DNA of 45,642 nucleotides from NCBI GenBank assembly GCA_019686135.1, contig JADGHL010000029.1, positions 1 to 45,642 on the forward strand. The letters are read 5' to 3'. Source of the DNA: Myxococcaceae bacterium (GTDB lineage Bacteria > Myxococcota > Myxococcia > Myxococcales > Myxococcaceae). Under the pieces are notes generated by a model. It had not been told where the DNA came from. It did not search any database and saw only the letters and a program-made list of their open reading frames with translations. The translations under genes and the position numbers were made by a program. Numbering within the stretch: position 1 is the first letter of the stretch; each line of letters opens with the position of its first letter. Below are positions 10,352 through 35,000 of this stretch, one piece after another.

Positions 10352-11956
10352 ATGATCCCACGACCCATCCATTTCCTATGGCGCCTATTCGGCGCAGTCC
10401 TGCTGCTCGCGGGCCCGGTGGCGAGCGCGGAGGACTCCACTGCGCCGGGTTTCGCGCTCTCGCACTTCGAACCTTCCGGGAGCGGCAGTCGCTTCTTCAC
10501 GCTCGAGAGCCTCGACTGGCGCGCGGGCACAGGGCCCACGTTCGGCGTCGTCGGCGACTACGCGCACAAGCCGCTGGTCATCTACGCGCTCACGCCACAG
10601 CGGCGGCAGGAGATCCGCGTCATCGCCCGCGACTTCGCGCTCGCCCACGTCGGCGGCGCGTACGCGTTCGGCGATCGCTTCCGGGTCGGACTCGACCTCC
10701 CCGTGCTGGGCTACGGCAACGGCGCGGTGGGTCGGATCGGACTCGTCACCTATCCGGCGCCGCAGCACACCGGCATGGGCGATCTCCGCGTCCGCGGCGA
10801 CTGGCGCTTCGTCGGGAGCGCGCACGATGCGGTCCGCGCGGGCCTGGGCGTCAGCCTCTTCCTTCCCACGGGCGATCCGGCCGCCTTCATGGGTGACGGC
10901 GTGCTCCGCGGCGCGCTGCAGCTTCAGGCCGCGGGCGAGGTCGCGGACTACCTGGCGTGGAGCGCGCGCGCGGGCGTGCTGTTGAGCGGGCTGGATGCCG
11001 AGTACGCCGGCGCGCAGCTCGGTCATCAGGCGCAGGCGGCGGTGGGCGTCGGCCTCCGCGCTTTCAGTGACCGGTTGATCGCCGGCCCCGAGCTCTCCGT
11101 GACGACGTCTCTGAAGGGCGCGTTCTCGGAGCCGTCCACGTCGATCGATCTGATGATCGGCGCGCACTACGCCATCTCGCCGCAGTGGCGGGTGGGCGCG
11201 GGCATCGGCCGCGGGTTCACCTCCGCGGTCGGCTCGCCCTCGCTGCGCGGGGTGGTCGGCGTCGAGTGGACCCCGGTCTTCTCCGACCCGAACGCCTGCA
11301 ACGACCTGCGCGCCTCGCTCGCCTCCGCGCGCGCCGCCGCCGAAGAGCAGGCCGCCCTGGCCGCCGCTGCTCGCGTTGAGGCGGAACGTGCCGCCCGGGA
11401 GCGCGCGGCCGCCGAACGGCGCGCGGCCGAAGCGGCGGAGCGTCAGCGGCTTGCTCTGGAGCAGGCGGCCGCCGAGGCGCGCGCCAACGCCGACGACGAC
11501 GGGGACGGGGTCCGCAACGCGGACGATGCCTGTCCCGCCGAGGCCGGCGCCGCGAACGCCGAACGTTCGAAGAACGGGTGCCCCACCGGCGCGGTCGTGG
11601 GCGAACAGCTCGTGCTGGACCAGGTGCGCTTTCGGACCGCCAGCGACGTGCTGCTCCCGGAGAGCCAGCTGATCCTCGAGAAGGTGCTGGCGGCGATCTC
11701 GAAGCTGCCCGCCGACTACCGCTACCGCATTGAAGGTCACACCGACGACCGCGGCCCGGCGTCCTTCAACAAGGACCTGAGCGAGCGGCGCGCGAAGAGC
11801 GTGGCGAAGTGGCTCGTCGCCCACGGCTTCGACGGCAGCCGGCTGGAGTCCGCCGGCTTCGGCCCGGAGCGCCCGGTCGCGCCCAATGACTCCGACGAGA
11901 ACCGCCAGCGGAACCGGCGCGTCGAGATCCACATCGTCAACCTGGAGGCCCGCTGA
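10352..11956 (+). CDS. OmpA-family outer-membrane protein with coiled coil, TSP3 linker and peptidoglycan-binding domain
   Basis: The 534-residue protein has a signal peptide (about 1-26, ending VASA), a region of about 280 residues rich in alternating strands that reads as a beta-barrel, and an Ala/Glu/Arg-rich coiled coil at about 320-380. A TSP3-like acidic motif DDDGDGVRNADDACP follows, then a C-terminal OmpA/MotB domain with the peptidoglycan-binding signature IEGHTDDRG, an Asn, LSERRAKSVAKWL and the terminal NRRVEIHI. This architecture ties the outer membrane to the cell wall. The giant surface protein starts two bases after its stop, and both carry TSP3-type motifs, so they probably form one complex. 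The coiled coil gives a periplasmic spacer between barrel and cell wall. Confidence 0.9.
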   Translation: MIPRPIHFLWRLFGAVLLLAGPVASAEDSTAPGFALSHFEPSGSGSRFFTLESLDWRAGTGPTFGVVGDYAHKPLVIYALTPQRRQEIRVIARDFALAHVGGAYAFGDRFRVGLDLPVLGYGNGAVGRIGLVTYPAPQHTGMGDLRVRGDWRFVGSAHDAVRAGLGVSLFLPTGDPAAFMGDGVLRGALQLQAAGEVADYLAWSARAGVLLSGLDAEYAGAQLGHQAQAAVGVGLRAFSDRLIAGPELSVTTSLKGAFSEPSTSIDLMIGAHYAISPQWRVGAGIGRGFTSAVGSPSLRGVVGVEWTPVFSDPNACNDLRASLASARAAAEEQAALAAAARVEAERAARERAAAERRAAEAAERQRLALEQAAAEARANADDDGDGVRNADDACPAEAGAANAERSKNGCPTGAVVGEQLVLDQVRFRTASDVLLPESQLILEKVLAAISKLPADYRYRIEGHTDDRGPASFNKDLSERRAKSVAKWLVAHGFDGSRLESAGFGPERPVAPNDSDENRQRNRRVEIHIVNLEAR

Positions 11957-11958
11957 CC

Positions 11959-14900
11959 ATGCGCGCCTCCCATCCCCTCCACCCCACCCGGAAACCACCC
12001 ATGCACAGGCTTCGCGTCCTCGCCGTGGCTGCGCTCACCGTCCTTGTGGCGGCGTGCAGCGACTCCGAGTCTTCTTCCAGAACCCGTCCCTCGTGGTCGA
12101 TCGGCCGCAGCCAGCGCGCGCTCGGCACCGATCTGTCCATCACTGCGTCCAGCACCACCCCGGGCGTCGGCGCGCCGGTGGAGCTGCGCGCGTCCGCGCC
12201 GGTGCACAACGACGTCTCGCTGATCGGCCAGACGCTGGAGCTGTCGTTCGACAACTCCCGCCTCGCCGTCGGCGCGGCGCCCGTCGTGCCCGAGGGCTGG
12301 ACCACCACCTATTACAGCAACGGGACTGCGCTTCCGTCCGTGCCGGCCTCCGTGGAGGCCTGGGCGTCGGTCGATCGGATCGTCGCCAGCGGCAGCGTGG
12401 AGAGCGACGGCTCCGCCAACGGGCAGCAGGTGATCGTCGGCCACGCGGACGGGACGGTGCAGATGCCGCCCACTGCGTCCACGTTCTCCGGCGGGTCTGC
12501 GGGTGACGGCTGGGACGTCATCTTCAGCCCGGACCGCACGAAGGTCTTCAACGTCCACCACCACGACGGCCCCCCCACGCTGATGTGCCGGAACGCGAAG
12601 GACGGCTCGAGCTGCGGCGCGGGCTACCCGTTCGCGCTGTACCACACGAGCTCGCGCTCCACCGGGTGGATCGACCCCGACACGCTCCGCTTCTGGCACG
12701 AGACGTACGACGGCACCACCGCCGGCTGGGAGTGCGTGGACGTCTCCGGCACGATGGCCGATCCGTACGCGCCGCCCAGCTACTGCCCCACGCGCTTCGT
12801 CTCCGCGGGCTTTGCTGCGAACACCTACGACGCGCACATCGATCTCGCCGTGGTGGGCAAGGAGCTCTACAGCCTGGACGCGGTGAACGCGAGGCTCACG
12901 TGTCTGGACGTGAGCGCCAACGGCGGTGCGGGCGCGCCCTGCGCGGGGCAGCCCTACGCGGGCTTTGGCGCGGCGGGCCCGTTCAACACGAACCTGAGCC
13001 TGATCGCCATCGACGGGAAGATCTACGTGCAGGGCAACAACGTGGTGAAGTGCTTCGACCCGGCGACGAAGGCGGCCTGCACCAACGGCTGGCCTGCCGC
13101 CGGCTTGGCGACCACGAAGAAGCGCCCGTTGATGGCGGTGCCGGATGCGAACGGCGCCCTCAACGTCTGTGTGCAGGGTGACTGCTGGGCGCTCAACGGC
13201 GGACCGTCCACGCTGCCTTCGGGCTTCTCCAGCTTCATGGCCAGCAACCCGGTCTCGAGCGGCTGCTGCGGCGAGTACTACTCGTCCACCGCCTTCGCCG
13301 GCACGCGGCTGTTCTTCCCGATGACCAACAACCGCGTGAACTGCTGGGACTCCGCTCTCAACAACGGCGCCGGCGGCCAGTGCACGACCGAGCCGTACGT
13401 TCAGGAGGACGGCAGCACGATCCAGGGCTCGTATCCGCTCACCGTTCAGTTCGTGTACAGCGTGCGCCCCGACCCGGTGAACCCAAACTGTCTGTGGTCG
13501 AACGGCGACGACGGCGTCATCCGCACCTGGGACGTTCCGTCCGGCACCGCCGGCTGCAAGGCGCCGCCGCCACCTCCGCCGGTCGTCACCTACTACCCGC
13601 AGGCGGTCATCCCGCGCCTCTCGTGCGACCCGGCGAACCGCGTCGGCAGCTGGAAGTCGTTCACGGTGCGGAACCCTGAGCCGAGCGAGTACGTGTCGGC
13701 TACGGTCACCATCAAGGACTCGAACGGCGTGGAGATCCCGGGGTGGGTCGACGTGCCGCTGCCGCCCAACCAGCAGCTCGACCTCACCGGTCTGAGCACC
13801 GCCGCCACCGGCCTCAACCCGTCCTTCGTCATCAAGTTCGAGGGGATGACCAACGACATCTCGCTCGGCGTCGTCACCGGCGGGCCCCAGGCGGACTTCA
13901 AGGTGCTCGGCGAGTCGCCGCAGATGTGCGTCACCGCCACCATGCGCTCGTGCGCCACCGGCACCGGGCTGTTCCCACAGAACGAACCCGCCTCCACCAC
14001 CGTCACCGCGAACGGCTCGGCGTCGATCGCCGGTGGGCAGTCGGTGACCTTCACGCCGGCGGCGGTGACGATCGCCGACGCGGCCGCGGACGCGGCGAAC
14101 TGCGGCGGCACGCTGAACGGGACGCTCGCTACGGCGGACGGGGCTCCGGTCGAAGGCCTGCAGGTGGCGCTGCTCGACGCGCTCGGCGCCTCGGTGGGGG
14201 ATGAGGCCGGCGCGCCCATCACCACCACCAGCGGCCACGACGGCACTTTCGCCTTCCCCGCGCTTCTGCCCGGCACCTACGCGGTGCGCATGACCAGCAC
14301 CTCGGACTGGAAGCTGGCGTCGATCACCGTCGCCGCGGGTGGTTCGGGCACGGTCAACGCCTCCGCCATCGGCGGCAACTCCGGGCCGGTGGCGGTGGGC
14401 CCGGCCGCGGTGTCCACCGTGAACGGCCTGTACGAGGCCCTGGGCCAGGACGGCGGCGTGCCGCCGAACGTGGGCGCGTTCCTCGGGAACACCGAGTTCA
14501 CGTTCGAAGCCTCCACGCTCGCCCCCGCGCAGGGCGCCACCGTCCAGTACCGCGCGGCGATCCCGCTGCAGGATACGCGCGGAGTCGTCGGCCACACGCT
14601 CGAGGCCACCATCGACACCACGCGCCAGCACCTCACCGGCGCGCCGACGTTCCCCGAGGGCTGGTCGGTGCAGTACTTCAGCGGCGGGACGCCTTTGCCG
14701 TCGGCGCCCACCACCGCGGCCGGGTGGGCGGCGGTCGATCGGATCGTCACCTCCGGCAACGTCCGCTACGACGGCGTGGTCAACGGCTACCAGCTCTACG
14801 TGGGCGCCACCGTGGCCACCGCGCCGCCGCCGACCGCCTCGTCCTTCTCCGGCAACTCCGCGGGCGATGGCTGGGACGTGTTCTTCAGCCCGGACCGCAC

Positions 14901-17900
14901 CAAGGTCTTCAACATCCACCACCACAACGGCCCGGCGACGGTGATGTGCCGCAAGTCCGCGGACGGCACGCCGTGCGGCGCGGGCTGGCCCTACGCGGTG
15001 AAGAACACCGGCAACCGCGCGATGGGCGTGGTCGACCCGGTGACGCTCCACCTGTGGCTGCCCACCTTCGACAGCGCGACCTCCACCGCGGGCTGGCAGT
15101 GCATCGACGTGTCCGGCCTGGACGAGACGCCGTACCGCGGGCCGAGCGACTGCGCGACGCCGTTCGTCTCCGCCGGCTTCACCGCGACCCACTATGACCA
15201 GCACGTCGGCGTGCACCAGATCGGCCGCAGGCTGTTCAGCCAGAGCCTGGTCGCCGGCGGCGCGCTCACCTGCCTCGACCTCGACGCCAACGATGGCGCC
15301 GGCGCGCCGTGCCCAGGCCAGCCGTACGCCGGCTTCGGTGGCACCCAGCTGGACCACACCGACTTCACGGTCATCGACGGCAAGCTGTACACGCTCGGTG
15401 GCGGCCAGGTCCGCTGCTTCGACCCGGAGACGAACGCGGCCTGCGCCGGGATGAGCTGGCCCAGGGCCACCGGGAACGATCAGCCCATCCTCGGGATCCC
15501 CGACGCCGATGGGGTCATCCGCAACGTCTGCGTGGAGCAGGACTGCTGGGCGCTCGACGGCAGCGCGCACACGCTCCCCCAGGACTTCATCAACTACCGT
15601 GCGGCCAACCAATCCCAGGCGCTGGCGTGCTGTTCCATCTACGCGGGCGGCAGCTCCGGCGGGACGCGTACCTTCTGGCCCACCGGTCTCAACCTCGTCG
15701 CCTGCTGGGATTCGGAGACCGCCGCGCCGTGCGCCAACTTCCCGATCAACGTGAATGCGATCTACGCGGCGCGCATCGATCCGGCGGACGAGAACTGCTT
15801 GTGGACCAACGGCGACGACGGGGTGATCCGCACCTGGAACATCCAGACCGGCCAGCAGGGCTGCGCGCCGCCTCCGGGCGTGGCGAAGTTCAAGCCGGCC
15901 ATCACGCTGCCGCGGCTGGCGTGTGATCCTGCTCGCCGGGTGGGCGACTGGTCGGTGTTCCGGCTCACCCAGCCGGATCCCTCCGGCTACACCTCGGCGA
16001 CGCTGACCATCCGCGACTCGCAGAACGCGCCGATCCCCGGCTGGACGAACGTGCCCATCCCCGCCACCCAGGCGGTGGATCTCACCGGGCTCACCACCGA
16101 GCTGACCGGCAGCGCGCCCACCTTCGAAGTGACGTTCGTGGGCCTGACCTTCACCGGGAACCCGACCGCGGACTTCGTCGTGGTGAGCGGATCGCCCGAG
16201 CTGTGCTTCACCGCGGTGGACACCTGCCCGGCGGGCCCGGGCCTTCTGCCCACCTCCGCGCCGCCCGCGACCCAGGCCACCGCCAAAGGTTCGCTGACTC
16301 TGGCGGACAGCACCGTGGTGCCGTTCGATCCGATCGCTCGCACCGTGCAGTACGCGGCGCCCGGCGTGGCGGCCTGTGGTGGCACGCTCAGCGGTACGCT
16401 CAGCTCCGTCGAAGGGCGCCCGGTGGTGGGCGCGACGATCGGCCTGCTGGACACCGACGGTAACCCGATCCAGGAGGGCGGCGCGAACGTCACCGTCACC
16501 TCCACCGCCCAGAGCACCTGGGAGCTCCCGCCGGTGATCGCCGGCACCTACCGGGTGCAGATGCAGGATTCGACCGGCTGGGTCGTCGACTCGGTGACGG
16601 TGAACGCCGGCGGATCCGGCACCACCGTGGCGGCGAACCACGTGGCGGTCTCCAACCCGGTGACCGTGACCGTGGGCGGATCCGGCGTGGTCGACGGCGC
16701 CTTCCACATCGGTGACTCGGATGCGGACGGGCTGCCGGACGATCAGGAGATGGGCCCGGGCTTCAGCGAGCTCGACACCGATTCGGACGGCGTGCCGGAT
16801 CACGTCGATCTCGACTCCGACAACGATGGCCTGCTCGATGCGTTCGAGAATCAGGGCCTGGCCACGCTGGTCGATTCCGACGGTGACGGGACGCCGGATC
16901 TGCGCGACACCGACTCCGACGCGGACGGCATCTTCGACGCGGTCGAAGGCGGCGCGACACAGGACGCCTCGCTCGAGCGCCTGATCGGTGCAGTGGGCGC
17001 CAACGGTGTCATCGATGCGATCGAAACCTCGGTCGACTCCGGCCAGGTGATCTTCGCTGCGGTCGACACCGACGGTGACACGACCAAGGACTACCTCGAC
17101 CTCGACAGCGACGCGGACGGTATCAGCGATCTGCTCGAGACCGCCGCGGACGCGGACGGGGACGGCATCGGCAACTGGCGCGACCTCGACGCGGACAACG
17201 ACGGGCTCACCGACACGCTGGAGTTCGGCGCGCCGGGGCCGCTCGACACCGACAACGACGGCACGCCGGACTACCTCGATATCGACTCGGACGACGACGG
17301 TATCGCGGACGCGATCGAAGCCGGGTTCGACCCTGCGCAACTCGACGGCGACGGGACGCTGAAGGGCCCGTTCGGCGCGAACGGCCTCGCCGACGCGCTG
17401 GAGACGGCGCCGGAGAGCGGGCAGCTCGCCTATGTCCCGCACGATCAGAACAGCGATGACGTGTACGACTTCCGCTCGACTGACAGCGATGGCGATGGCC
17501 TGAGCGACACGCTCGAGAAGGGCCCCGGCAATCTGCCGGTCGACTCGGACGGCGACCAGCTCGCGGACTACCTCGACGTCGACTCCGACGGCGACGACAT
17601 TGACGATGCGATCGAGTCGGACGGGACGGGCACCGTGGTCGACACCGACGGCGACGGGACGCCCGACCACCTCGACCTCGACACCGACGCGGACGGCATC
17701 CCCGATCTGGTGGAGACCGCCGTCGACGCGGACGGGGACGGCGTGGGCAACTGGCGTGACACCGATTCGGATGACGACGGGCTCGCGGATGCGCTCGAGG
17801 GCGCGGTCGACTCCGACCTGGATGGCACCGCCGACTTCCTCGACCTCGACTCGGACGACGACCTTTTGAGCGACGCGTTCGAGAGCAACAGCGGCACCGT

Positions 17901-19983
17901 GGTGGACACCGACGGCGATCAGCGGGCCGACCACCTCGACGCGGACTCCGACGCGGACGGCATCCCCGACCGGATCGAAGGCGCGCTGGATGGCGATGGG
18001 GACGGCGTGGGCAACTGGCGCGACCTCGACTCGGACGGCGATGGGATCGACGACGCGACCGAGCGCGGGCCGGACGGCACGACGCCGCTGGACACCGATC
18101 AGGACGGCATCGCCGACTACCTGGACACCGACAGCGACAACGACGGGCTTTCGGACGAGTGGGAGCGCGGCGCGAGCACCCCGGCGCAGCGTGATTCCGA
18201 CGGCGATGGCCTGCCGGACTACCGCGACCCCGACTCGGACGGCGACACCATCTCCGACCTGCAGGAGACCGACGGCACCGGCACGCTGGTGGACACCGAC
18301 AACGACGGCACGCCGGACGTGCTCGACCTCGACACCGACGGCGACGGCATCGAGGACTTCCGCGAGACCGGCGCGGACCTGGACGGCGACGGCGTGGGCA
18401 ACTGGCGCGACCTCGACGCGGACGGCGACGGGCTCTCCGACACCTGGGAGAAGGGCACCGCCAGCGTGCCGCGTGACACCGACCAGGACGGCACGCCGGA
18501 CTTCCTCGACACCGACAGCGACGGGGACACGATCGCCGATGCCACCGAGCGCGGCATCGTCCCCGACACGCTCGCCGACACCGACGGGGACGGCACGCCC
18601 AACGTGCTCGACGCGGACAGCGACAACGACTGCCGCCCGGACGTGGACGAGCCCGCCTTCTCCACCGACACGCACATGCCGCTCGCCAACCCGAGCGACA
18701 ACTGCGGCAGCAACGGCGCCTGTGACACGACCACCGGCACCTGCCTCACCGCCTGCACCGTCGACGCGGACTGCGGGGGTGGGACGAGCGGGATGATCTG
18801 CGACGACGTCACCCGGCTGTGCACCGCCGGCTGCCGCGGCACCGGCAACCTGTGCCCGGGCACGCAGATCTGCAGCTCCACCGACGGCGCCGCGGGCGTG
18901 TGCCAGACGGACACCGACGGCGACGGGCTGACCGACGACGAGGAGCTGGCGAAGGGGCTGGATCCGTCGAAGAGCGACAGCGACGACGACGGCATCGGCG
19001 ACGCCGTGGAGGCCGCAGGCGGCGTGCTCACCGACACCGACCACGACGGGACGCCGGATGCGCTCGATCTCGACTCCGACGGCGACGGCATCCCCGACTC
19101 CGTCGAGGGTCAGAACGACGCGGACGACGACGGCATCCCCAACTGGCGGGATGCGGACTCCGACGACGACGGCGTGCCGGACAGCGAAGAGCACGCGGTC
19201 GACACCGACGGGGACGGAACGCCCGACTTCGTCGACACCGATTCGGACGACGACGGCGTGCCCGACAGCGACGAAGCCGCCATCGGGACCTCGCGCACCA
19301 ACCCGGACTCGGATGGTGACGGGATCTCCGACAAAGACGAGCTCGGCGCCGACGGCCAGCCGAAGGACAGCGACGGCGATGGCACCATCGACGCGCTGGA
19401 CACCGACAGCGACGACGATGGTCTGCCCGACGCGCAGGAGTACGCCCAGGGCGGTGACACCGACGGTGACGGCACTCCGGACTACCTGGACACCGACACC
19501 GACGGCGACGGCATCCCCGACAGCGTGGAGCGCGGCACCGGATCCACTCCGGTCGACACGGATGGCGACGGCGTGCCTGACCACCTCGACGCGGATTCGG
19601 ACAACGACGGCGTCCCCGACGCACAGGAGGCCCAGCCGCACCCCGGGCAGCCCGTGGATACCGACGGCGACGGTGTGCCGGACTACCTGGACAGCGACAG
19701 CGACAACGACTGCGTCGTCGACAGCGCCGAGACCTCCACCGGGATGTTGTTCGCGTCGATCCCGCAAAAGGACGTGGACGACAACTGCCCCGCCGCGGCG
19801 CCCCGGTGTGACACGAAGGTGGGCCGCTGCGTGCTCCCCGAGAACGCGCTCGATCCGGAGACCGTTCAGCTGGAAGGCGCGGGTGGCACCGAAGGCTGCA
19901 CCGCGGTCGGCGGAGTGGGTGGCTGGCTGAGCGTGCTCGGCCTGGTCGGCCTGGCGGTCCGGCGCCGGCGCGCGAAACGCTGA
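11959..19983 (+). CDS. Giant surface protein: lipobox, duplicated ectodomain, TSP3-like repeats, MYXO-CTERM-like C-terminus
   Basis: A 2674-residue protein. The signal peptide ends in a lipobox (LVAAC then SDSE). Two homologous modules follow, about residues 60-840 and 845-1580, each with a beta-rich head (SAGDGWDV, FSPDRTKVFN), a Cys-containing middle and a Cna-B/SdrD-like beta sandwich. Residues about 1585-2587 are TSP3-like acidic repeats (DTDGDGTPD, DSDNDG), interrupted near 2228-2318 by a Cys-rich knob. The tail GCTAVGGVGG, a hydrophobic segment and RRRRAKR form a MYXO-CTERM-like sorting signal with Cys2647. By family knowledge, myxosortase processes such tails and TSP3 repeats bind calcium; a calcium-stiffened stalk is inferred. 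GGAGG supports the ATG at 11959; ATG 12001 gives a more ordinary signal peptide. A terminator follows. Ligand and role are unknown. Confidence 0.88.
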   Translation: MRASHPLHPTRKPPMHRLRVLAVAALTVLVAACSDSESSSRTRPSWSIGRSQRALGTDLSITASSTTPGVGAPVELRASAPVHNDVSLIGQTLELSFDNSRLAVGAAPVVPEGWTTTYYSNGTALPSVPASVEAWASVDRIVASGSVESDGSANGQQVIVGHADGTVQMPPTASTFSGGSAGDGWDVIFSPDRTKVFNVHHHDGPPTLMCRNAKDGSSCGAGYPFALYHTSSRSTGWIDPDTLRFWHETYDGTTAGWECVDVSGTMADPYAPPSYCPTRFVSAGFAANTYDAHIDLAVVGKELYSLDAVNARLTCLDVSANGGAGAPCAGQPYAGFGAAGPFNTNLSLIAIDGKIYVQGNNVVKCFDPATKAACTNGWPAAGLATTKKRPLMAVPDANGALNVCVQGDCWALNGGPSTLPSGFSSFMASNPVSSGCCGEYYSSTAFAGTRLFFPMTNNRVNCWDSALNNGAGGQCTTEPYVQEDGSTIQGSYPLTVQFVYSVRPDPVNPNCLWSNGDDGVIRTWDVPSGTAGCKAPPPPPPVVTYYPQAVIPRLSCDPANRVGSWKSFTVRNPEPSEYVSATVTIKDSNGVEIPGWVDVPLPPNQQLDLTGLSTAATGLNPSFVIKFEGMTNDISLGVVTGGPQADFKVLGESPQMCVTATMRSCATGTGLFPQNEPASTTVTANGSASIAGGQSVTFTPAAVTIADAAADAANCGGTLNGTLATADGAPVEGLQVALLDALGASVGDEAGAPITTTSGHDGTFAFPALLPGTYAVRMTSTSDWKLASITVAAGGSGTVNASAIGGNSGPVAVGPAAVSTVNGLYEALGQDGGVPPNVGAFLGNTEFTFEASTLAPAQGATVQYRAAIPLQDTRGVVGHTLEATIDTTRQHLTGAPTFPEGWSVQYFSGGTPLPSAPTTAAGWAAVDRIVTSGNVRYDGVVNGYQLYVGATVATAPPPTASSFSGNSAGDGWDVFFSPDRTKVFNIHHHNGPATVMCRKSADGTPCGAGWPYAVKNTGNRAMGVVDPVTLHLWLPTFDSATSTAGWQCIDVSGLDETPYRGPSDCATPFVSAGFTATHYDQHVGVHQIGRRLFSQSLVAGGALTCLDLDANDGAGAPCPGQPYAGFGGTQLDHTDFTVIDGKLYTLGGGQVRCFDPETNAACAGMSWPRATGNDQPILGIPDADGVIRNVCVEQDCWALDGSAHTLPQDFINYRAANQSQALACCSIYAGGSSGGTRTFWPTGLNLVACWDSETAAPCANFPINVNAIYAARIDPADENCLWTNGDDGVIRTWNIQTGQQGCAPPPGVAKFKPAITLPRLACDPARRVGDWSVFRLTQPDPSGYTSATLTIRDSQNAPIPGWTNVPIPATQAVDLTGLTTELTGSAPTFEVTFVGLTFTGNPTADFVVVSGSPELCFTAVDTCPAGPGLLPTSAPPATQATAKGSLTLADSTVVPFDPIARTVQYAAPGVAACGGTLSGTLSSVEGRPVVGATIGLLDTDGNPIQEGGANVTVTSTAQSTWELPPVIAGTYRVQMQDSTGWVVDSVTVNAGGSGTTVAANHVAVSNPVTVTVGGSGVVDGAFHIGDSDADGLPDDQEMGPGFSELDTDSDGVPDHVDLDSDNDGLLDAFENQGLATLVDSDGDGTPDLRDTDSDADGIFDAVEGGATQDASLERLIGAVGANGVIDAIETSVDSGQVIFAAVDTDGDTTKDYLDLDSDADGISDLLETAADADGDGIGNWRDLDADNDGLTDTLEFGAPGPLDTDNDGTPDYLDIDSDDDGIADAIEAGFDPAQLDGDGTLKGPFGANGLADALETAPESGQLAYVPHDQNSDDVYDFRSTDSDGDGLSDTLEKGPGNLPVDSDGDQLADYLDVDSDGDDIDDAIESDGTGTVVDTDGDGTPDHLDLDTDADGIPDLVETAVDADGDGVGNWRDTDSDDDGLADALEGAVDSDLDGTADFLDLDSDDDLLSDAFESNSGTVVDTDGDQRADHLDADSDADGIPDRIEGALDGDGDGVGNWRDLDSDGDGIDDATERGPDGTTPLDTDQDGIADYLDTDSDNDGLSDEWERGASTPAQRDSDGDGLPDYRDPDSDGDTISDLQETDGTGTLVDTDNDGTPDVLDLDTDGDGIEDFRETGADLDGDGVGNWRDLDADGDGLSDTWEKGTASVPRDTDQDGTPDFLDTDSDGDTIADATERGIVPDTLADTDGDGTPNVLDADSDNDCRPDVDEPAFSTDTHMPLANPSDNCGSNGACDTTTGTCLTACTVDADCGGGTSGMICDDVTRLCTAGCRGTGNLCPGTQICSSTDGAAGVCQTDTDGDGLTDDEELAKGLDPSKSDSDDDGIGDAVEAAGGVLTDTDHDGTPDALDLDSDGDGIPDSVEGQNDADDDGIPNWRDADSDDDGVPDSEEHAVDTDGDGTPDFVDTDSDDDGVPDSDEAAIGTSRTNPDSDGDGISDKDELGADGQPKDSDGDGTIDALDTDSDDDGLPDAQEYAQGGDTDGDGTPDYLDTDTDGDGIPDSVERGTGSTPVDTDGDGVPDHLDADSDNDGVPDAQEAQPHPGQPVDTDGDGVPDYLDSDSDNDCVVDSAETSTGMLFASIPQKDVDDNCPAAAPRCDTKVGRCVLPENALDPETVQLEGAGGTEGCTAVGGVGGWLSVLGLVGLAVRRRRAKR
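12136..16700 (+). repeat. Ancient tandem duplication of a module of about 2.3 kb inside the giant surface gene
   Basis: The segment near 12136-14480 and the segment near 14492-16700 encode collinear homologous modules: EGWTTTYYSNGT/EGWSVQYFSGGT, SAGDGWDVIFSPDRTKVFNV/SAGDGWDVFFSPDRTKVFNI, CVDVSG/CIDVSG, NGDDGVIRTWDV/NGDDGVIRTWNI, then CGGTLNGTL/CGGTLSGTL. Divergence is clear at both protein and DNA level, so the duplication is old and functionally retained. Confidence 0.85.
16710..19720 (+). repeat. TSP3-like acidic repeat tract (DxDxDG type)
   Basis: About 3 kb encoding dozens of 12-14-residue units of the form D-[TS]-D-x-D-G-x-x-D. A longer module carrying G[VI]xNWRD recurs near 17170, 17750, 18010, 18400 and 19140. 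Aspartate-rich loops of this kind bind calcium in thrombospondin and bacterial relatives. The Cys-rich interruption lies at about 18640-18910. Confidence 0.85.
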
Positions 19984-20003: not shown

Positions 20004-20040
20004 AGAGCCCCGTCGGAAAATCCGGCGGGGCTCTTTGCTT
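20004..20040 (+). terminator. Rho-independent terminator of the OmpA/giant-protein unit
   Basis: AGAGCCCCGTCGG (20004-20016) pairs with CCGGCGGGGCTCT (20022-20034) over 13 bases with a single G-U wobble, a five-base loop AAAAT, then TTTGCTTTC. It begins 20 bases past the stop codon and is the strongest terminator in the window. Confidence 0.85.
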
Positions 20041-20190
20041 TCATCGAGCACAGCGCCCGAAGCCGGGTTTGCTGTAGACGGCAGACGGAAGACGGAAGAT
20101 CCAACACGCGGTAGCCGCCCCTTCTGCATCTTTGCCGCGCCCCTGTTCTCCACCACCGCGCTGGCGCGCCGCCTCGTCTTACGCAGTCGC

Positions 20191-21555
20191 GTGTCCTATC
20201 TTCTTCAGCCGATCGCCGTGACCGACGCCGGCCAGACGCAGAGCTCCACCACCGCTTCCAGCATCCCCGCTCGTCCGGTGGCCCGGCCGCGCCTGCTCGG
20301 GCTGGCGCTGGTGCTCGACTGCGGCCACCTCGACACAGGCGGCGAGTTGTTCGTGCTCGACCGCGTCAGCCGCGTCGTCCTCGGCCGCGGCGATCGCCGG
20401 GCGATGGAGCGGACGCACGATACGGGGCGCTGGACGCTCACCGATCCGAAGCTCTCCAGCACCCACGCGGTCGTTCAGGTCGAAGGCGGATCGGTGCTGG
20501 TGGAGGACCAGGGCTCGCGCAACGGGATCTTCATCCGCGATCAGCGCGTCGACCGCGCGCGCGTGTTGCCCGGCGAGTCGTTCCGTGCGGGCGACTCTTT
20601 CTTTCTGCTGGTCGACGACGTCGAACCTGTGCGCCCCAGCGACCGGCCGTTGCTCCCCACCTTTCACGGCGCCTTCGCCCGCGAGCTCGACCGGCTCCAG
20701 AAGCTGGCCGTGAGCCCGCTGCCGCTTCTGTTGATGGGCGAGACGGGCAGCGGCAAGGAGGTGCTGGCGCAGGCGATCCACGCGCGCTCCGGACGCCCCG
20801 GGGCCTTTTTGCCGGTGAACTGCGGAGCGATTCCGGACGGTCTGGTCGAAGCGCACTTCTTCGGCCACGACCGCGGCGCGTTCTCCGGCGCGGTGCGCGA
20901 CGAGCCGGGGCTCGTCCGCCGCGCGGCCGGCGGCACACTGTTCCTCGACGAGATCGGCGATCTCCCCCTGTCGGCGCAGGCCGCGCTTCTGCGCGTGCTC
21001 CAGGGAGGCGAGGTGACCTCGGTGGGCTCCAGCCGTCCGGAGCGCGTGGACGTCCGCGTGCTCGCGGCCACGCACCGCGACCTCGAGAGCATGGTGAAGG
21101 CGGGCCAGTTCCGCGCCGATCTCTACGCGCGGCTCGCCGGCTTCGTGGCGCGAACGCCGCCCTTGCGCGAGCGCCGCGCCGACCTCGGGCTCTTGATCGC
21201 CTCGTTCATCGCCGACGGACGCCTGCCGCCGATCCGCATGGAGCGTGAGGCGGCGGCGCGGCTGCTCGATTACGACTGGCCGTACAACGTGCGCGAGCTG
21301 CTCCAGGCGATGCAGGCCGCCGCAGCGCTTGCGGGCGGAGAGCCGGTGCGCGCCAGCCACCTTCCGGAGACGGTCCGCGCCGGCACTGCGCCGAGGCCCG
21401 GCCAGGACCTCTCCCCGGAGGACCGGGCACTCCGCGACGAGCTCATCCGCCGGATGCGCGAGCGCAACGGGAACATCACCCAGGTCGCGCGCGACATGGG
21501 CAAGGCGCGTCAGCAGATCCAGCGGTGGATCCGCCGGTTCGATCTGCCGCGCTGA
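20191..21555 (+). CDS. FHA-domain sigma-54-dependent transcriptional activator
   Basis: A protein of about 454 residues: an N-terminal FHA domain (about 62-140; VVLGRG, then LSSTHAVV and SRNGIF), which recognises phosphothreonine; a sigma-54 activator AAA+ domain with Walker A GETGSGKE (183-190), a GAFSGA loop (229-234, a T-to-S change from the usual GAFTGA), and Walker B LFLDEIG (250-256); and a Fis-type helix-turn-helix at the end (NITQVARDMGKARQQIQRWI). It drives sigma-54 promoters and is expected to respond to Ser/Thr phosphorylation rather than to a receiver domain. The start is uncertain: GTG at 20191 or 20218, neither with a good ribosome site; the frame stays open back to 20035 but reaches the preceding terminator. 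It is convergent with a Ser/Thr kinase, its likely partner. Confidence 0.92.
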   Translation: MSYLLQPIAVTDAGQTQSSTTASSIPARPVARPRLLGLALVLDCGHLDTGGELFVLDRVSRVVLGRGDRRAMERTHDTGRWTLTDPKLSSTHAVVQVEGGSVLVEDQGSRNGIFIRDQRVDRARVLPGESFRAGDSFFLLVDDVEPVRPSDRPLLPTFHGAFARELDRLQKLAVSPLPLLLMGETGSGKEVLAQAIHARSGRPGAFLPVNCGAIPDGLVEAHFFGHDRGAFSGAVRDEPGLVRRAAGGTLFLDEIGDLPLSAQAALLRVLQGGEVTSVGSSRPERVDVRVLAATHRDLESMVKAGQFRADLYARLAGFVARTPPLRERRADLGLLIASFIADGRLPPIRMEREAAARLLDYDWPYNVRELLQAMQAAAALAGGEPVRASHLPETVRAGTAPRPGQDLSPEDRALRDELIRRMRERNGNITQVARDMGKARQQIQRWIRRFDLPR

Positions 21556-21575
21556 CGGCCTGCGCCGCTTCAGCG
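21550..21575. terminator. Shared hairpin between convergent activator and kinase genes
   Basis: CGCTGA-CGGC (21550-21559) pairs with GCCG-(CT)-TCAGCG (21564-21575) around loop CTGC. The stop codons of the two genes (TGA 21553-21555; TCA 21570-21572 on plus) lie in opposite arms. There is no T-run, so it is a candidate bidirectional terminator only. Confidence 0.4.
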
Positions 21576-23084
21576 GATCTCGAAGTTGGAGAACCGCACC
21601 TCGGCCGCGCGGTGCTGGACGTAGAGCGTCACCCTTCCGGCGGCGTAGGTGTCGTCCTCCACGCGCGCGATCGTCTCGCCGTTGAGGCGGATCTCGAACG
21701 CCTCCCCGCGTGCGTCCACCTCGACGCGGTTTCTGCCCGGGCGCAGCGTCGCTGGCCGGAACCTGGGGAACGCGGGATCGGCCGGTTGCCAGCCGCCGTG
21801 GGCGCCTTCGAAGACCTGGAACAATCCCCGGTTCCCGATGCCGAAGTTCACGCCGTAGCCGCTGCCGTCCTCGCGCTCGAGGACCGGTTGGGCCCGGAAG
21901 CCGATGCCGATGGTGGTGCCGTTGGGGGGCAGCCGGATCGGTTCGAAGTCCACCGTGAGGTGACCGTCCCGGAGCTCCGCATCGCTCATCACCTGGCCGC
22001 CGCTCCCGATGAGCGCCCCGTCCTCCACGCGCCAGCTGCCTTCCTGGATCTGCCACCGCGTCCCGCCCGCGGCGAGCGTCTCGGCACTGTGATGGCGCAC
22101 GACCAGCGCCGCCACCGCCACGACTGCCGCGAAGCACGCGAACGTCACGCCGGCGCGTGCCCGGCGCCGCCTCGGCCGATCGTCCGTGTCCGCAGCAGAG
22201 GAGGGTGCCCGCCCCTCGAGCGCGTCGTCCACCGCGGCGATCAGCGCGCCCGCGTTCTGGAAGCGGGCCGCCGGCCTTAGATCGAGCGCCCGGGTGAGCA
22301 CCGCCTCGAGGGCCTCACCCACCTCCACGCCGAGCACGCGCGGCGTGGGCCGCTCGGGCGACACCGCGCGCTCCAGTGGGTTGCCGTCACCGTACGGCCG
22401 CCGCCCGGTCACCAGCTCCACGAAGAGCAGCCCCAGGCTGTGCACGTCCGTCCACGGTCCGGTGCGGCTGGCGGTGACCTGTTCGGGCGCGGCGTACGGC
22501 GGCGAGTACGCGCTCGGTTCGCGGGTGAGCGTCTGGCCCGAAGGCAACGGTTCGTCGGCGACCGCCTTGGCCACGCCGAAGTCGACCACGCGCGGGATGA
22601 TCTGCCCCCCGCGGCGGGCGAGGATGATGTTCGACGGCTTCAGATCGCGGTGGACGATGCCCTGTTCGTGTGCGCAGGCGATCGCCGACGCGACGGGCCG
22701 GAGCAGCCGCCAGGCGTCTGCGGGCGTCATCGGCGTGCGCACCTCGCCGTCTTCCACCGCGCGCTCCAGCGTCGACCCGTCGCACCACTCCAGGGCGATC
22801 CACGGGAGGTTGCCGTCGGGGAGCACGCCGGCATCCAGCACCGAGACGATGTTCGGGTGGCGCAGCTTCGCCAGCGTCCGCGCCTCTTCGAGGAACGCGG
22901 GGACGTAGCGGACCGGATCCCGGTCGCCGCGCAACACCTTGATCGCGATCGGACCGTCCAGCACCAGGTGGTGGCCCGCGTACACCCGCCCGAACCCGCC
23001 TTCGGCGACGAGCGCGTCGACGCGGTACCGGCCGGCGAGGAGGGTGCCGGGCGCGATGGATGCGTCCGTGAGCGGGCTGCTCAT
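21570..23084 (-). CDS. Transmembrane Ser/Thr protein kinase with a C-terminal DUF1080-like domain
   Basis: A 504-residue bacterial Hanks-type kinase. Residues about 18-290 hold the catalytic domain: glycine loop AEGGFGRVYAG (27-37), Lys49 in AIK, the HRDLKPSN loop (145-152, Asp147), DFG (168-170) and APE (199-201). A basic stretch RPRRRRAR (303-310) precedes one membrane helix (about 312-329). The outer part (about 340-504) has the strand pattern of the 3-keto-disaccharide hydrolase/LamG-like fold (DUF1080, PF06439): WQIQEGSWRVEDGALIG, then GFRAQP, GYGVNFG, the LNGE strand and the closing VRFSNFEIR. It may thus sense a sugar outside and phosphorylate targets inside; the convergent FHA activator is the obvious candidate. 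The ATG at 23084 is chosen because it begins the compact N-terminus; a longer in-frame start lies at 23132. Confidence 0.9.
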   Translation of the reverse strand: MSSPLTDASIAPGTLLAGRYRVDALVAEGGFGRVYAGHHLVLDGPIAIKVLRGDRDPVRYVPAFLEEARTLAKLRHPNIVSVLDAGVLPDGNLPWIALEWCDGSTLERAVEDGEVRTPMTPADAWRLLRPVASAIACAHEQGIVHRDLKPSNIILARRGGQIIPRVVDFGVAKAVADEPLPSGQTLTREPSAYSPPYAAPEQVTASRTGPWTDVHSLGLLFVELVTGRRPYGDGNPLERAVSPERPTPRVLGVEVGEALEAVLTRALDLRPAARFQNAGALIAAVDDALEGRAPSSAADTDDRPRRRRARAGVTFACFAAVVAVAALVVRHHSAETLAAGGTRWQIQEGSWRVEDGALIGSGGQVMSDAELRDGHLTVDFEPIRLPPNGTTIGIGFRAQPVLEREDGSGYGVNFGIGNRGLFQVFEGAHGGWQPADPAFPRFRPATLRPGRNRVEVDARGEAFEIRLNGETIARVEDDTYAAGRVTLYVQHRAAEVRFSNFEIR

Positions 23085-23109
23085 CCGGGCCGCGTTTACA
23101 CGGTGCTCT

Positions 23110-23144
23110 CGTTGCCCGACAACGTCGTTCATCCGTCCGGATGA
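23110..23144. promoter_or_regulatory. Two palindromes in the kinase/reductase divergent promoter region
   Basis: CGTTG-CCCGA-CAACG (23110-23124) and the tighter palindrome TCATCCG-TC-CGGATGA (23129-23144) lie between the divergent kinase and aldo/keto reductase starts. The second has perfect seven-base arms and looks like an operator. The binding protein is unknown. Confidence 0.4.
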
Positions 23145-30041: not shown

Positions 30042-32087
30042 ATGCCCCTTCGCTCCGCCGCCGTGCTGTTGCTCTGCGCCGCCTGCGCCCACACCGCGGA
30101 GCCCGGGCCGGTGGTCCGCGCCGTGACGTTCGTGGGCAACGAGCACCTCGACGACGGCGAGCTCGCCGATGCGATCGTCACCACCGGATCGAGCTGGGTC
30201 CCATTCACCGCGCGGCACCACTTCGACCCGAACGTCTGGACGACGGATCTCGAGCGGCTCGAGCGCTACTACCACTCGCGCGGCTTCTACCAGGCGGAGG
30301 TGGTGGAGGACGCGATCGAGCCTGTGGGCGAGGACGCGGTGCGGCTCCGCGTGCGCATCCGCGAGGGCGAGCCGACCGTGCTCACCCATCTGGCGATCCA
30401 CGGTCTGGAGGATCTGCCGGAGGAGCACCGCGCGCGCGTGCTCGAGGTGGTCACGCTGCGGGAGGGCGAGCGTTTCGAAGAACCGAAGTGGGAACCTCTC
30501 AAGGGCGCGCTCGTCGCGGCGCTGGTGGACCTCGGCTACGCGGAGGCGAAGGCAGAGGGGCAGGCGAAGGTGGATCTCGCCACGCACCAGGCCTCCATCG
30601 ACGTGCAGGTGACGCCGGGCGTCCGCTACCGCCCGGGCGAGGTCCACGTGGTGACGCAGCCGGGCGCGCGCGTCGAGGCGTGGCGGATCCGCGAACAGGT
30701 CGAAGAGGCGATCAAGGGCGAGGAGTGGTACTCGCAGGAGGTCCGCGAGGAGGTCCAGCAACGCGTCTTCGGTCTCGGCGTCTTCGGCGCCGCGCAGGTC
30801 ACGCCGGAGAAGGGCGATCCGGTCACGCAGCGGCTGCCGCTCCGGGTCGAGGTCCAGGAGACCGCGTTCCACGAAGTGGCGGCCGGCTTCGGCCTCGGCG
30901 TGGAGCAGCGGCGCAACGAGATCCACGCGATCGGCGAGTACACCGACCGCGACTTCCTCGGCGGTCTACGCCGCCTGCAGCTCACCGCGCGCGCAGGGTG
31001 GGCGTTCATCCCCAACGCGTGGTCCGTGCTCGGCGGCGGCAACGTGGTGACGCGCACCGGACCCATCGCCCGGCTCGACGCACAGCTCGACCAGCCACGC
31101 TTCTTTCACCCCGACTTCCGCATCCACGGTGAGCTCGAGGCGGAGCGCGCGATCGAGCCTGCGTATTCCTTCATCGGCGGGCGCCTCAAGCTGGGCGTGC
31201 CGTGGCGGCCGTGGAGCTGGCTGGAGGTTCAGCCCGCGTACGACCTCGAGCTCTACCGGCTGGATGCGGGGCAGGTGACGCTCTCGGAGGGAACGCCGCA
31301 GCTCCTCTTCGGCTGCGAGCGCGCCTGCGTGCTCTCGTACCTCGAGCAGCGCGCGGCGATCGACCGCCGCGACGATCCACAGGAGCCGCACCGGGGCTAC
31401 TACCTCGCGCTGTCGGTCCAGGAGGGCGGCGGCCCGTTGGGCGGGAGCTTCGACTACGTGCGCATCTCGCCGGAGGTGCGCGGCTACGTCCCGCTCACGC
31501 GCGAACAACGCGTGGTGCTCGCCGGCCGCCTGAAACTGGGGACGTTGATTCCTGTCGGCGCCGAGGACACCGCGTCCCCGATCGTCGCCCGCTACTTCTC
31601 CGGCGGCGACGAGATGCGCGGCTTCAGCACCCAGCGCCTGTCGCCCATGCAGCTCGAACGCAAGTCCAACCCGAAGGAGGGCGAAACCTTCAACGCCGAA
31701 CCCGTGCCGATCGGCGGCAATGGGTTGTTCGAGGCGTCGGTGGAGGCGCGCTACGCGATCAGCCCGACGTTGGTGATCGCCGCGTTCGTGGACACGGGCT
31801 TCGTCACCGCGGAGCAGTTGCAGTGGTCGGACCCGTCGTACTTCACCCGGAACCTTCTCTGGGCGGTGGGCGGCGGCATCCGCTACCGCACCCCGGTGGG
31901 ACCGATCCGTCTGGACCTCGCGTACCGGCTGCCGTTCGGACCGCCGCTGCAGGTGAGCTCGGCGGATCCGGCGCTCACCTATGACCCATCGTCCGGGTGC
32001 TTCGGGATCGGCCGAAGCTCGCCGAACCGCGGCGGCGCACCCGAGGGCGTCTGCGCGATTCACCTTTCGGTGGGGGAGGCGTTTTGA
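30042..32087 (+). CDS. tamA: TamA-like Omp85-family outer-membrane assembly protein with a lipobox
   Basis: A 681-residue protein. After an N-terminus with lipobox-like CAAC (Cys15) come POTRA-type domains (about 24-280: VRAVTFVGNEHLDDGELADAI, a YYHSRGFYQAEV motif, VRIREGEP) and a C-terminal Omp85 beta-barrel (about 285-681) with FLGGLRRLQLTARAG, RYFSGGDEMRGFS (the RGF/Y motif of Omp85 loop 6) and the closing VGPIRLDLAYRLPFG. Omp85 proteins insert barrels into the outer membrane; TamA works with TamB, which follows and overlaps by four bases. A Cys directly after the signal would make it a lipid-modified barrel, unlike enterobacterial TamA. The extension after the barrel strand, about 30 residues, is also unusual. 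Confidence 0.88.
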   Translation: MPLRSAAVLLLCAACAHTAEPGPVVRAVTFVGNEHLDDGELADAIVTTGSSWVPFTARHHFDPNVWTTDLERLERYYHSRGFYQAEVVEDAIEPVGEDAVRLRVRIREGEPTVLTHLAIHGLEDLPEEHRARVLEVVTLREGERFEEPKWEPLKGALVAALVDLGYAEAKAEGQAKVDLATHQASIDVQVTPGVRYRPGEVHVVTQPGARVEAWRIREQVEEAIKGEEWYSQEVREEVQQRVFGLGVFGAAQVTPEKGDPVTQRLPLRVEVQETAFHEVAAGFGLGVEQRRNEIHAIGEYTDRDFLGGLRRLQLTARAGWAFIPNAWSVLGGGNVVTRTGPIARLDAQLDQPRFFHPDFRIHGELEAERAIEPAYSFIGGRLKLGVPWRPWSWLEVQPAYDLELYRLDAGQVTLSEGTPQLLFGCERACVLSYLEQRAAIDRRDDPQEPHRGYYLALSVQEGGGPLGGSFDYVRISPEVRGYVPLTREQRVVLAGRLKLGTLIPVGAEDTASPIVARYFSGGDEMRGFSTQRLSPMQLERKSNPKEGETFNAEPVPIGGNGLFEASVEARYAISPTLVIAAFVDTGFVTAEQLQWSDPSYFTRNLLWAVGGGIRYRTPVGPIRLDLAYRLPFGPPLQVSSADPALTYDPSSGCFGIGRSSPNRGGAPEGVCAIHLSVGEAF

Positions 32088-35000
32088 AGCGCTGGGCGAA
32101 GCGGGTGGGCGTGGCGCTGCTCGCCGCGGTGGGTGTGGTGCTTCTGACCGTCGTCGGCGTCTGGATCCATCTGCACACCGAGGCCGGTGGCGCGCTCTTG
32201 CGGCGCAGCGTGCTCGCCGCGGTGAACGGGCGGATTTCTGGAACGCTCCGGCTGGGCGAGGTCGATCTTCGGGGTACGACCCTCTCGCTTCGCTCCGTCG
32301 CTCTCTCGGATCCGGAGGGCGAGGTGGTCGCCGAGGTGGAGGAGGTCCGGGCGGAGATCGCGCTCCTTGCGCTGCTCGGCCGCACCGTGCGGATGAAAGA
32401 GCTGGCGCTGGTCCGCCCCGAGCTGTGGGTCGTGAGGCACGAAGACGGCGGCACCAATCTGCAGGCCGCGCTGGCGCCGCGGCATCCAAAGCCGGAGCAG
32501 CCGGAGGAGAAGGTCGCACCGCGGATTCCGGTGGATGTGATCGTCGAGGCGATCGCGATCTCCAAAGGCCGTGTCTCCTTCGAACAGCTCCCGGATGCAA
32601 AGCCACGGTCGATCGTCGCGACGGATCTGACCACGCGTGGTGCCTTCGCCCTGACCGGACGCGGCGGGCGCCTTGACGCCACCTTTACTCTCGAGGGCGC
32701 GCTCACTGAGCCGGCCGAAGTGCCGCTGGCGCTCGACGTCCATGCGACCGCGATCGGCGACAACCGATCCTTTCGCGGGCGCCTGATGGTCGCAGACGCG
32801 CGCGCGGACGTGCGTGCGACGATGCAAGGGGCCGGAGACCTTGCCCTCGACGTGGATCGACTCGAGCTCCCGCCTGCGCCGATGCGTGAGCTCGTCGAGG
32901 GCTGGCCGCTCATCGCCACGCTGCGCGCCACCGCACACCTGGAGAAGCAGGGCGGTGACCTGCGCGGTCGCACGCACCTGGAGGCCGGCGCAGGGAAGGT
33001 CGACGCGAGCGGGCAGCTGAACCTGGACACCTTCGAGTCCAACGGCGTGAGGGTGGTCGCCGGAGGAATCGATCTCTCCGAGTTGATCGCCGCCGGCCCG
33101 AAGTCCGCCATCGGCTTCACGTTGGAGGCACATGGCGGTGGCCACAGCATGGAGACGCTCACGGGGGCGCTGTCCCTCCGCGCGCCCGCTTCGACGATCG
33201 ACGGCGCGCCGTTCGGGCCGATCCGCCTGGACGCGCGGGCCGAACAAGGGCGGATGCTGCTCGAAGCGCTCGACGCGCGCGTTCCGGGGATGGCGATCAC
33301 CGCGCGGGGAGAGCGCAGCCAGGACCGGTTGCACGTGTTCGGACGGATGGCGGCGAACGACCTGCGCGCGTTCGCGCGGACGCTCGGGAAGCTGGCCGGG
33401 CCGCGCGGGCTGCCGCTGTCCGGCAACGGGGCGGTCGCCTTCGAGATCGACGGTCCGGAGAAGGGACCGAAGGTGACGCTGCGTGGCCGCCTGCCGGCGC
33501 TCACGTTCGGCCGGACCTCGGTCCGGGCGCTGGAGCTCGACGCGGAGGTGCCGAACGTGATGGCGCCACTGGTCGGCGATGCCACCATCCGCGTGGGCGC
33601 GGCGCGCGTGTTCGTCTCCGGAAAGGAGTGGCGCTGTCCAGAGCTCGCCGTCACCTCGAAGCGCGGGCGGTTCACGCTGGGCGCCGGGACGCGCGGGTTC
33701 GCATCGGTCGAGCTGCGCGCGAGCGGGACGATCGACGGAGACCGAAGGGGCCTGAGCCTAAGTCGGATGCGTCTTCGTTCCCCCGGAACGGTGTGGACGC
33801 TCGAACACACCGCGCGGCTACGGCTCGATCGCGGCGCGCTGTCGCTTCGCGGCCTGGTGCTGCGCTCAGGGCAACAGGGGATCGCGCTGGACGTCACCAG
33901 GGCAGGGGCGCGCGTGGACGCAGGGCTGCACGTCTCCGCGCTGAGGCTGGAGAAGCTGCCGCGCGCGCTGGTCGATCCGGAGCTTCAGCTCGGCGGCGTG
34001 CTCGACCTCGACGCGCGGGTGAGCGGTCGGTTCCCGAAGCCCGAGGTCGTGGCGAGGGTCACGCTGAAGGACGGGCGCGTGAAGCGCTACGGCGGCATCG
34101 CCCTGGCGCTGGATGGGTCGTGGAAGCACGACCGCGCCCTGGGGAATCTGGACGTCACGGCGCTCGGCGTCCACGCGCGCGGGGACTTCGACGTTCCCAC
34201 CGACGCGCTCCGCACCGCTCGCGCCGAGCCGCTCCGCGCACGGCTGGCGATCGACGACGCCGCGATCGGGGACGTTTTCGCGCAGCTGGGAGAGAAGGCG
34301 GTCCCACTGCGCGGGCGCGTCGGCGCGACGCTGGAGCTCGATGGCACGGCGCGTCTGCCAAAACTGACCGCACAGCTCGGCGCGCGCGAGCTGACCTGGG
34401 CGCAGCAGCCGCCGGTCGATCTCGACATCCTGGCGAACACCCGGCCGGATGGCCGGCTATCGGCGAGAGTGGATGCGCAGACCCAGGGCCGGTCCGCCTT
34501 CGTGGTGCTCGAGACGCCGTGGACGCTCGGCCGGCTCATCCGCAGGCCCCCGACCGCGGAGCAGGCACTGCACGCTGCGTGGACGCTGAAGGCGAAGCTC
34601 GACGGGCTGCCGATCCCGGCCGGTGCATTCCTGCCCGATAAGCGCACGGGAGACGGGCCGCCCGGGGCACGCCGCGAATCCTTCGCTCTGCTCGACGGCG
34701 ACATCGATCTCAAAGGTCCGCCGCTCGCTCCTGAAGGGCGGGCGGAGTGGACACTGCGAGACGTCCGGCTCGACCCGGCGCAGCCGCCGCTGCGCGCGTG
34801 GATGAGGCTGGTGCTGCACCCGCGGCGCGCGCAGATGCAGGCGAGGATCGACCAGGGCCCGGTGATGCTCGCGCGTGCGGAGGCGAGTCTCGACGCGTCC
34901 CTTGCGACGTTGCGCAGCCCGCAGGGCCGTGCGACCGCGCCGTTCACGTTCGACGCCACCTGGGGACCCATCCGCCTGACGGATCTCCGGGAGCTCCATC

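Follow-up and report, generated by a model that had tools for sequence, protein, structure and literature searches.

A predicted barrel–OmpA wall anchor paired with a giant calcium-repeat protein carrying lipid-anchor signals at both ends in a Myxococcaceae genome

Introduction

Can a single polypeptide chain that is lipidated at both ends still cross the outer membrane? A locus in a 5.5 Mb draft genome (245 contigs) from the family Myxococcaceae raises this question, because one of its products carries a conserved signal for lipid anchoring at each end. The passage of lipidated cargo through the type II secretion system was tied to GspN only recently, and surface sorting in myxobacteria is a live question.

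Here, we analyzed a 45,642-nucleotide stretch of this genome (the window), in which a preliminary description had noted a two-gene surface unit. The observations made there are confirmed, but the interpretation placed on them is only partly supported. As read from its sequence, the unit is a predicted barrel–OmpA wall anchor together with a giant, putative calcium-repeat adhesin that has lipid-anchor signals at both ends.

Results

The two-gene unit and its setting

Both open reading frames are present as first described, separated by two bases on the plus strand, where all of the features discussed below for the two genes also lie. Gene 1 (10352-11956) encodes 534 residues and gene 2 (11959-19983) encodes 2674. 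The GC content by codon position (0.67/0.53/0.93) favors the plus-strand reading, and on this basis a minus-strand open reading frame of 2676 residues (11737-19767) was rejected as a high-GC mirror artefact. Just downstream of the unit (20035-23132) is an FHA/sigma-54 activator frame, with a Ser/Thr kinase that has a C-terminal 3-keto-disaccharide-hydrolase-like domain on the opposite strand. At 30042-36622, an Omp85-family gene with a POTRA domain overlaps a TamB-like gene; the two are probably a TamAB pair.

Signals at the two ends of the giant protein

The N-terminal lipobox LVAAC reported earlier is present in the gene 2 protein. Its cysteine is residue 33 of the open reading frame (codon 12055-12057), and the signal peptide ends in VLVAA-C. 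Initiation at the ATG at 12001 (M15) gives a compact and canonical 18-residue lipoprotein signal peptide (MHRLRVLAVAALTVLVAA-C, 12001-12057), and M15 is a likelier start than the first ATG. The protein would then have 2660 residues.

At the other end is a MYXO-CTERM sorting signal (19894-19971), composed of a GC motif containing Cys2647 (codon 19897-19899), a transmembrane helix and an arginine cluster (RRRR). The giant protein scores 15.2 bits against TIGR03382 by hmmscan and 19.8 bits in the genome search, where it passes the cutoff of 15.85, in agreement with the MYXO-CTERM-like tail and Cys2647 of the preliminary description.

Tandem propeller modules and calcium repeats

Residues 41-1590 consist of a ∼780-residue module that occurs twice with 46% identity, a duplication absent from the preliminary description. 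Module 1 (786 residues, 12079-14436) comprises an N-terminal sandwich, a β-propeller (12469-13542) and pilin/adhesin-like domains. Module 2 (14437-16728; alignment A1) is a tandem copy in which homology places the propeller at about 14830-15849. A Pfam search of the giant protein gave no family for the module itself, and the AlphaFold model of the module (eight sequences) is of moderate confidence (pLDDT 73.6, pTM 0.47). In this predicted model, the propeller (model residues 131-488) aligns with YncE (7seu) with a Z-score of 23.5 and an rmsd of 2.9 over 279 residues in VIA-align, an assignment that we use with confidence. The propeller contains a GDGWD...HHH stretch which, together with many cysteines, is invariant across the module family (alignment A1). 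The C-terminal part of the module matches SdrD in a profile search (E 1e-4). In Foldseek, the whole module matches best to pilins and adhesins of Gram-positive bacteria, UafA and BcpA among them; the TM-scores of these matches are low, and we exclude them from the confident assignment. Given the SdrD match and the kind of protein found by Foldseek, an Ig/CNA-B-like fold is likely for the module tail.

The modules are followed by two TSP3 calcium-repeat blocks, one of about 640 residues (16714-18630) and one of about 263 residues (18910-19698), which flank a Cys-rich linker of about 92 residues (18631-18906). The roughly 1000 residues of calcium-type repeats claimed previously are borne out by 58 DxDxD[GN] motifs in residues 1581-2590; 1000 shuffled versions of this stretch had 3.1 on average and never more than 10. 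In the second block, the best PF18884 stretch (residues 2318-2338) scores 20.4 bits (cutoff, 25). As read from the sequence, the TSP3 blocks may bind calcium and the giant protein may function in adhesion. Elsewhere in the window genome, three TSP3-repeat-like stretches lie close together (L016-L018, G000:C242:11045-16764) and may form a second calcium-repeat locus.

Relatives retain both signals

Strong relatives of the module are sparse and were found only in Myxococcaceae: in 5 of 57 sampled genomes of the family, the window genome apart, and in record JAFGNZ010000370.1. Outside the family, only a C-terminal fragment of the module was matched in the phylum sample, and weakly. The named records with homologues are Myxococcales/Myxococcaceae assemblies from metagenomes, and the modules of the family are 33-69% identical to those of the window. 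One member, L045, lies on a broken or mis-assembled contig, and only its pieces were used.

Loss of the N-terminal cysteine from homologues, which the preliminary description had named as evidence against its proposal, was not found. Seven members have an N-terminus that can be read (the window, L045, L047, L048, L049, L051 and L052), and every one of them has the lipobox cysteine, followed in each by [SG][DN], while the remaining signal peptide and the linker diverge. The MYXO-CTERM signal, with its GC motif, helix and arginine cluster, is likewise present wherever the C-terminal end is readable (6/6: the window, L046, L047, L049, L051 and L052), at an internal position in L049. TSP3 blocks are absent from L047, L049, L051 and L052; L049 has lectin-like and Cys-rich repeats in their place, and the other three have fewer than 1010 residues each. 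Because these four members keep both signals, the double signal is independent of the calcium stalk.

Sorting and export machinery

The preliminary description had also made its proposal depend on a myxosortase in the genome, and MrtX is encoded there (NF040593, 341 bits; cutoff, 180). The genome also encodes three peptidases of the LspA type, and its type II secretion system is represented by GspC, D, E, F, G, H, I and M, of which GspH, GspI and GspM are weak matches placed by operon order. A gene for GspN lies beside gspM (TIGR04411, 235 bits); Pfam PF01203 gave no GspN match in this genome. No enzyme is known to lipidate the MYXO-CTERM cysteine, and the lipid on this cysteine in Myxococcus xanthus is itself a prediction.

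TraA of M. xanthus is cleaved and anchored by MrtX, and its surface anchoring requires both this enzyme and the MYXO-CTERM cysteine (PMC11980579). In Acinetobacter baumannii and Klebsiella pneumoniae, type II cargo with a lipidated N-terminus needs GspN to be transported to the surface, and GspN-dependent surface lipoproteins are rich in Ser, Gly, Asn and Asp right after the cysteine (PMC12802150). The [SG][DN] pair that follows the lipobox cysteine in the seven relatives resembles this cargo motif of other genera.

How many anchors the mature protein keeps

We consider it quite possible, at a little under an even chance, that both anchors persist in the mature giant protein. A less probable but serious alternative is that only the C-terminal anchor counts. 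The lipobox would then serve export only, keeping the huge chain tethered to the inner membrane while it folds, and later trimming of the N-terminal end would give an ordinary, C-terminally anchored adhesin like TraA. Such a product would be in good company, as most MYXO-CTERM proteins, including the TraB-linked L108, L109, L117-L119, L122 and L125, start with a type I signal peptide; a single anchor presumably suffices for them. However, no conserved protease site was seen after the lipobox cysteine, and the retention of this residue in all seven readable members amid diverging surroundings argues against a signal needed only for export. It is improbable that the giant protein is instead an N-terminal surface lipoprotein only, with a weak MYXO-CTERM signal that is processed inefficiently and a tail that acts as a transient membrane stop. 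The tail does score close to the TIGR03382 cutoff, but the retention of the GC motif, helix and arginine cluster in every readable relative and the clear MrtX in the genome speak against this reading.

To place this retained double signal in context, the N-termini of MYXO-CTERM proteins were read in the window genome and in two complete Myxococcaceae genomes. A lipobox was found in 5 of 10 barrel-linked MYXO-CTERM proteins and, by a hand count, in about 9 of 62 readable ones with no TraB-like barrel (for example L148, L154, L162, L170, L186 and L193; Fisher p about 0.02), or in 4 of 9 barrel-linked proteins when the window is left out (p about 0.05). Because the barrel-linked set was examined first, some members are mutually related, several translation starts are doubtful and lipoboxes were called from their pattern and by eye, this enrichment is a lead, short of a proven association. 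The counts do show that the predicted combination of lipobox and MYXO-CTERM is recurrent in Myxococcaceae, beyond the quirk of one gene. Three giant open frames of 1723-2353 residues (L148, L154 and L193) have both signals and no adjoining barrel gene, and are further candidates for a double anchor.

Among the papers examined that mention MYXO-CTERM, the main in silico myxosortase paper not being one of them, none describes a protein processed at both ends; literature searches on MtsC/MtsD and on proteins with a lipid at each end gave nothing usable. We tentatively propose, giving it slightly less than even weight, a class of doubly lipid-anchored myxobacterial surface loops, with the N-terminal end anchored by the LspA route and the C-terminal end by myxosortase; the class would be enriched among those adhesins that a TraB-like barrel ties to peptidoglycan.

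The gene 1 protein is a TraB-like barrel–OmpA protein

The gene 1 protein consists of a signal peptide, a predicted 12-stranded outer-membrane β-barrel (residues 61-306, 10532-11269), a 66-residue Ala/Glu/Arg-rich helix (11288-11485; H288-353 of the model), a single TSP3 motif (DDDGDGVRNADDACP, 11486-11545) and an OmpA peptidoglycan-binding domain (11630-11917). The signal peptide, barrel, single weak TSP3 motif and OmpA domain are the features by which we recognize a TraB-like barrel–OmpA protein. The preliminary description had called it an OmpA protein with a TSP3 motif. The OmpA domain is clear (PF00691, 67 bits, E 1.7e-18), whereas the TSP3 motif is present but weak (PF02412, 15.6 bits; cutoff, 25); the stretch that matches OmpA structure 5wtl (residues 381-529) includes the motif. 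Against the TraB model NF033763 (exchanger_TraB), the protein scores 149 bits over residues 32-529, far from the curated cutoff of 700, and an assignment to TraB proper was rejected. The AlphaFold model (pLDDT 77.9) has twelve long strands in the barrel, and the helix that leads from the barrel to the OmpA domain in this model is possibly a periplasmic spacer.

Foldseek matches the barrel to FapF (5o67 and 5o68; E 1.9e-10, TM-score about 0.6 to 0.68 on the target) and to a COG4313 channel (4rl8). FapF is a polypeptide transporter, and this match and the gene linkage would suit a barrel that is a dedicated secretion pore for the giant protein, with the OmpA domain merely holding the pore in place. 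We think this improbable, because the likeness to FapF is that of a common barrel fold, which plain channels (4rl8, for example) share, and because in the related system TraB acts in contact and anchoring while TraA uses type II secretion to cross (PMC11980579, PMC12045341). An anchoring role for the gene 1 barrel is the reading that we follow below.

The barrel gene and the adhesin gene stay together

When the gene pair was sought in relatives, as the preliminary description had suggested, a barrel–OmpA gene was found just upstream of the adhesin gene in L047, L048, L051 and L052, and the corresponding pieces adjoin in L045. L049 and L050 form a single 4449-residue frame (G016:C37:7787-21136) in the order lipobox, module, lectin-like and Cys-rich repeats, MYXO-CTERM, barrel and OmpA, with a second signal-like stretch between the MYXO-CTERM and the barrel. 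The conserved gene order and this fusion led us to reject chance adjacency, and the joining of both proteins in one frame points to a physical partnership of adhesin and barrel. The repeats of the fused frame are C-type-lectin-like and, over about 2000 residues, Cys-rich, and its MYXO-CTERM is internal.

The arrangement extends to other adhesin families in these genomes, as a barrel gene ahead of a gene with MYXO-CTERM (L108, L109, L118, L119 and L122) or as a barrel/MYXO-CTERM fusion (L097, L102, L105-L107, L112, L115, L117, L125, L126 and L133); an internal MYXO-CTERM in some of these was read by eye. Two other loci of the window genome (L064 on contig C77 and L065 on contig C40) add to the internal MYXO-CTERM fusions: past the MYXO-CTERM, the frame continues through a second signal-like stretch, which ends in AHAQ, into more protein, in which no TraB-like barrel was matched.

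Discussion

A model for the unit

These results make it probable, in our judgment, that the unit is a TraAB-like, two-protein, wall-anchored contact unit. The giant protein would be exported by Sec and lipidated at its C-terminal end and probably also at its N-terminal end. At the surface, the two propeller modules would be binding heads on a stalk stiffened by calcium in the TSP3 blocks, and the barrel protein beneath the stalk would tie it to peptidoglycan through the OmpA domain, so that the cell wall takes the load when the adhesin is pulled. Should both ends receive lipids that persist, these would hold the chain at its two ends as a closed, bent-back loop. A surface role in adhesion is plausible for the giant protein; we infer its lipidation, surface position, partner contact, adhesion and ligand from sequence features. 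It is scarcely credible that the two lipidated ends sit in the membranes of different cells and bridge them or aid outer-membrane fusion: although the related TraAB system is a proposed outer-membrane fusogen (PMC12045341), no route is known that would release a lipidated end to a second cell, and nothing in the sequence supports this arrangement.

The wall-anchored unit also suggests that the TraAB plan of a MYXO-CTERM adhesin and a barrel–OmpA wall anchor is a general one, used with many heads and beyond outer-membrane exchange. The giant protein is a natural substrate with which to separate the actions of Lgt/LspA, MrtX and GspN by single cysteine changes.

Comparison with known systems

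The preliminary description presented this design as one that it did not know from a described system. That view is not supported in this form, since TraAB and MXAN_5598 precede it (PMC11980579, PMC12045341) and the combination of lipobox and MYXO-CTERM recurs in these genomes. Like the window unit, TraAB of M. xanthus has two linked genes, one for a protein with a barrel, TSP3 and OmpA and one for a stalked MYXO-CTERM surface receptor; in TraA, a variable recognition head and a Cys-rich repeat stalk precede the MYXO-CTERM. TraB is predicted to form a 1:1 complex with TraA and is proposed to pass force to peptidoglycan (PMC12045341). The window unit differs in its barrel protein, which falls well below the TraB cutoff and is about 26% identical to TraB sequences (alignment A2), and in the type II signal peptide of its adhesin, where TraA has a type I signal peptide. 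A search of the giant protein against NCBIfam and Pfam family models gave no match to the TraA family, and no canonical TraB scores above the cutoff in the window genome. Two other genomes (G044 and G051) hold a true TraB together with a homologue of the window unit, which is therefore a separate relative of TraAB and not its orthologue.

Two further comparisons concern parts of the giant protein. MtsC, a MYXO-CTERM protein of cell–cell cohesion, shares TSP3-type repeats with it, but an assignment to MtsC was rejected because the giant protein scores 42.5 bits against NF047638 (cutoff, 350), with the best stretch lying within the TSP3 repeats. InvL and pullulanase, which are N-terminally lipidated type II cargo, also have a lipobox followed by Ser/Gly/Asp-rich residues, and GspN is present in the window genome. 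Unlike the giant protein, they have a single N-terminal lipid anchor and no MYXO-CTERM signal has been described for them.

The closest precedent for a single-chain form is MXAN_5598, in which an adhesin, an internal MYXO-CTERM, a barrel and OmpA follow one another in one chain that has been likened to TraAB (PMC11980579). The window unit has the same set of functions, and the fused form occurs within its own family in L049/L050. It differs in being encoded by two genes, with the barrel first, and in having binding modules of a separate family; L097 of G023, a fusion built like MXAN_5598, has a type I signal peptide. By analogy with TraAB and the MXAN_5598 fusion, the window pair would work as they do.
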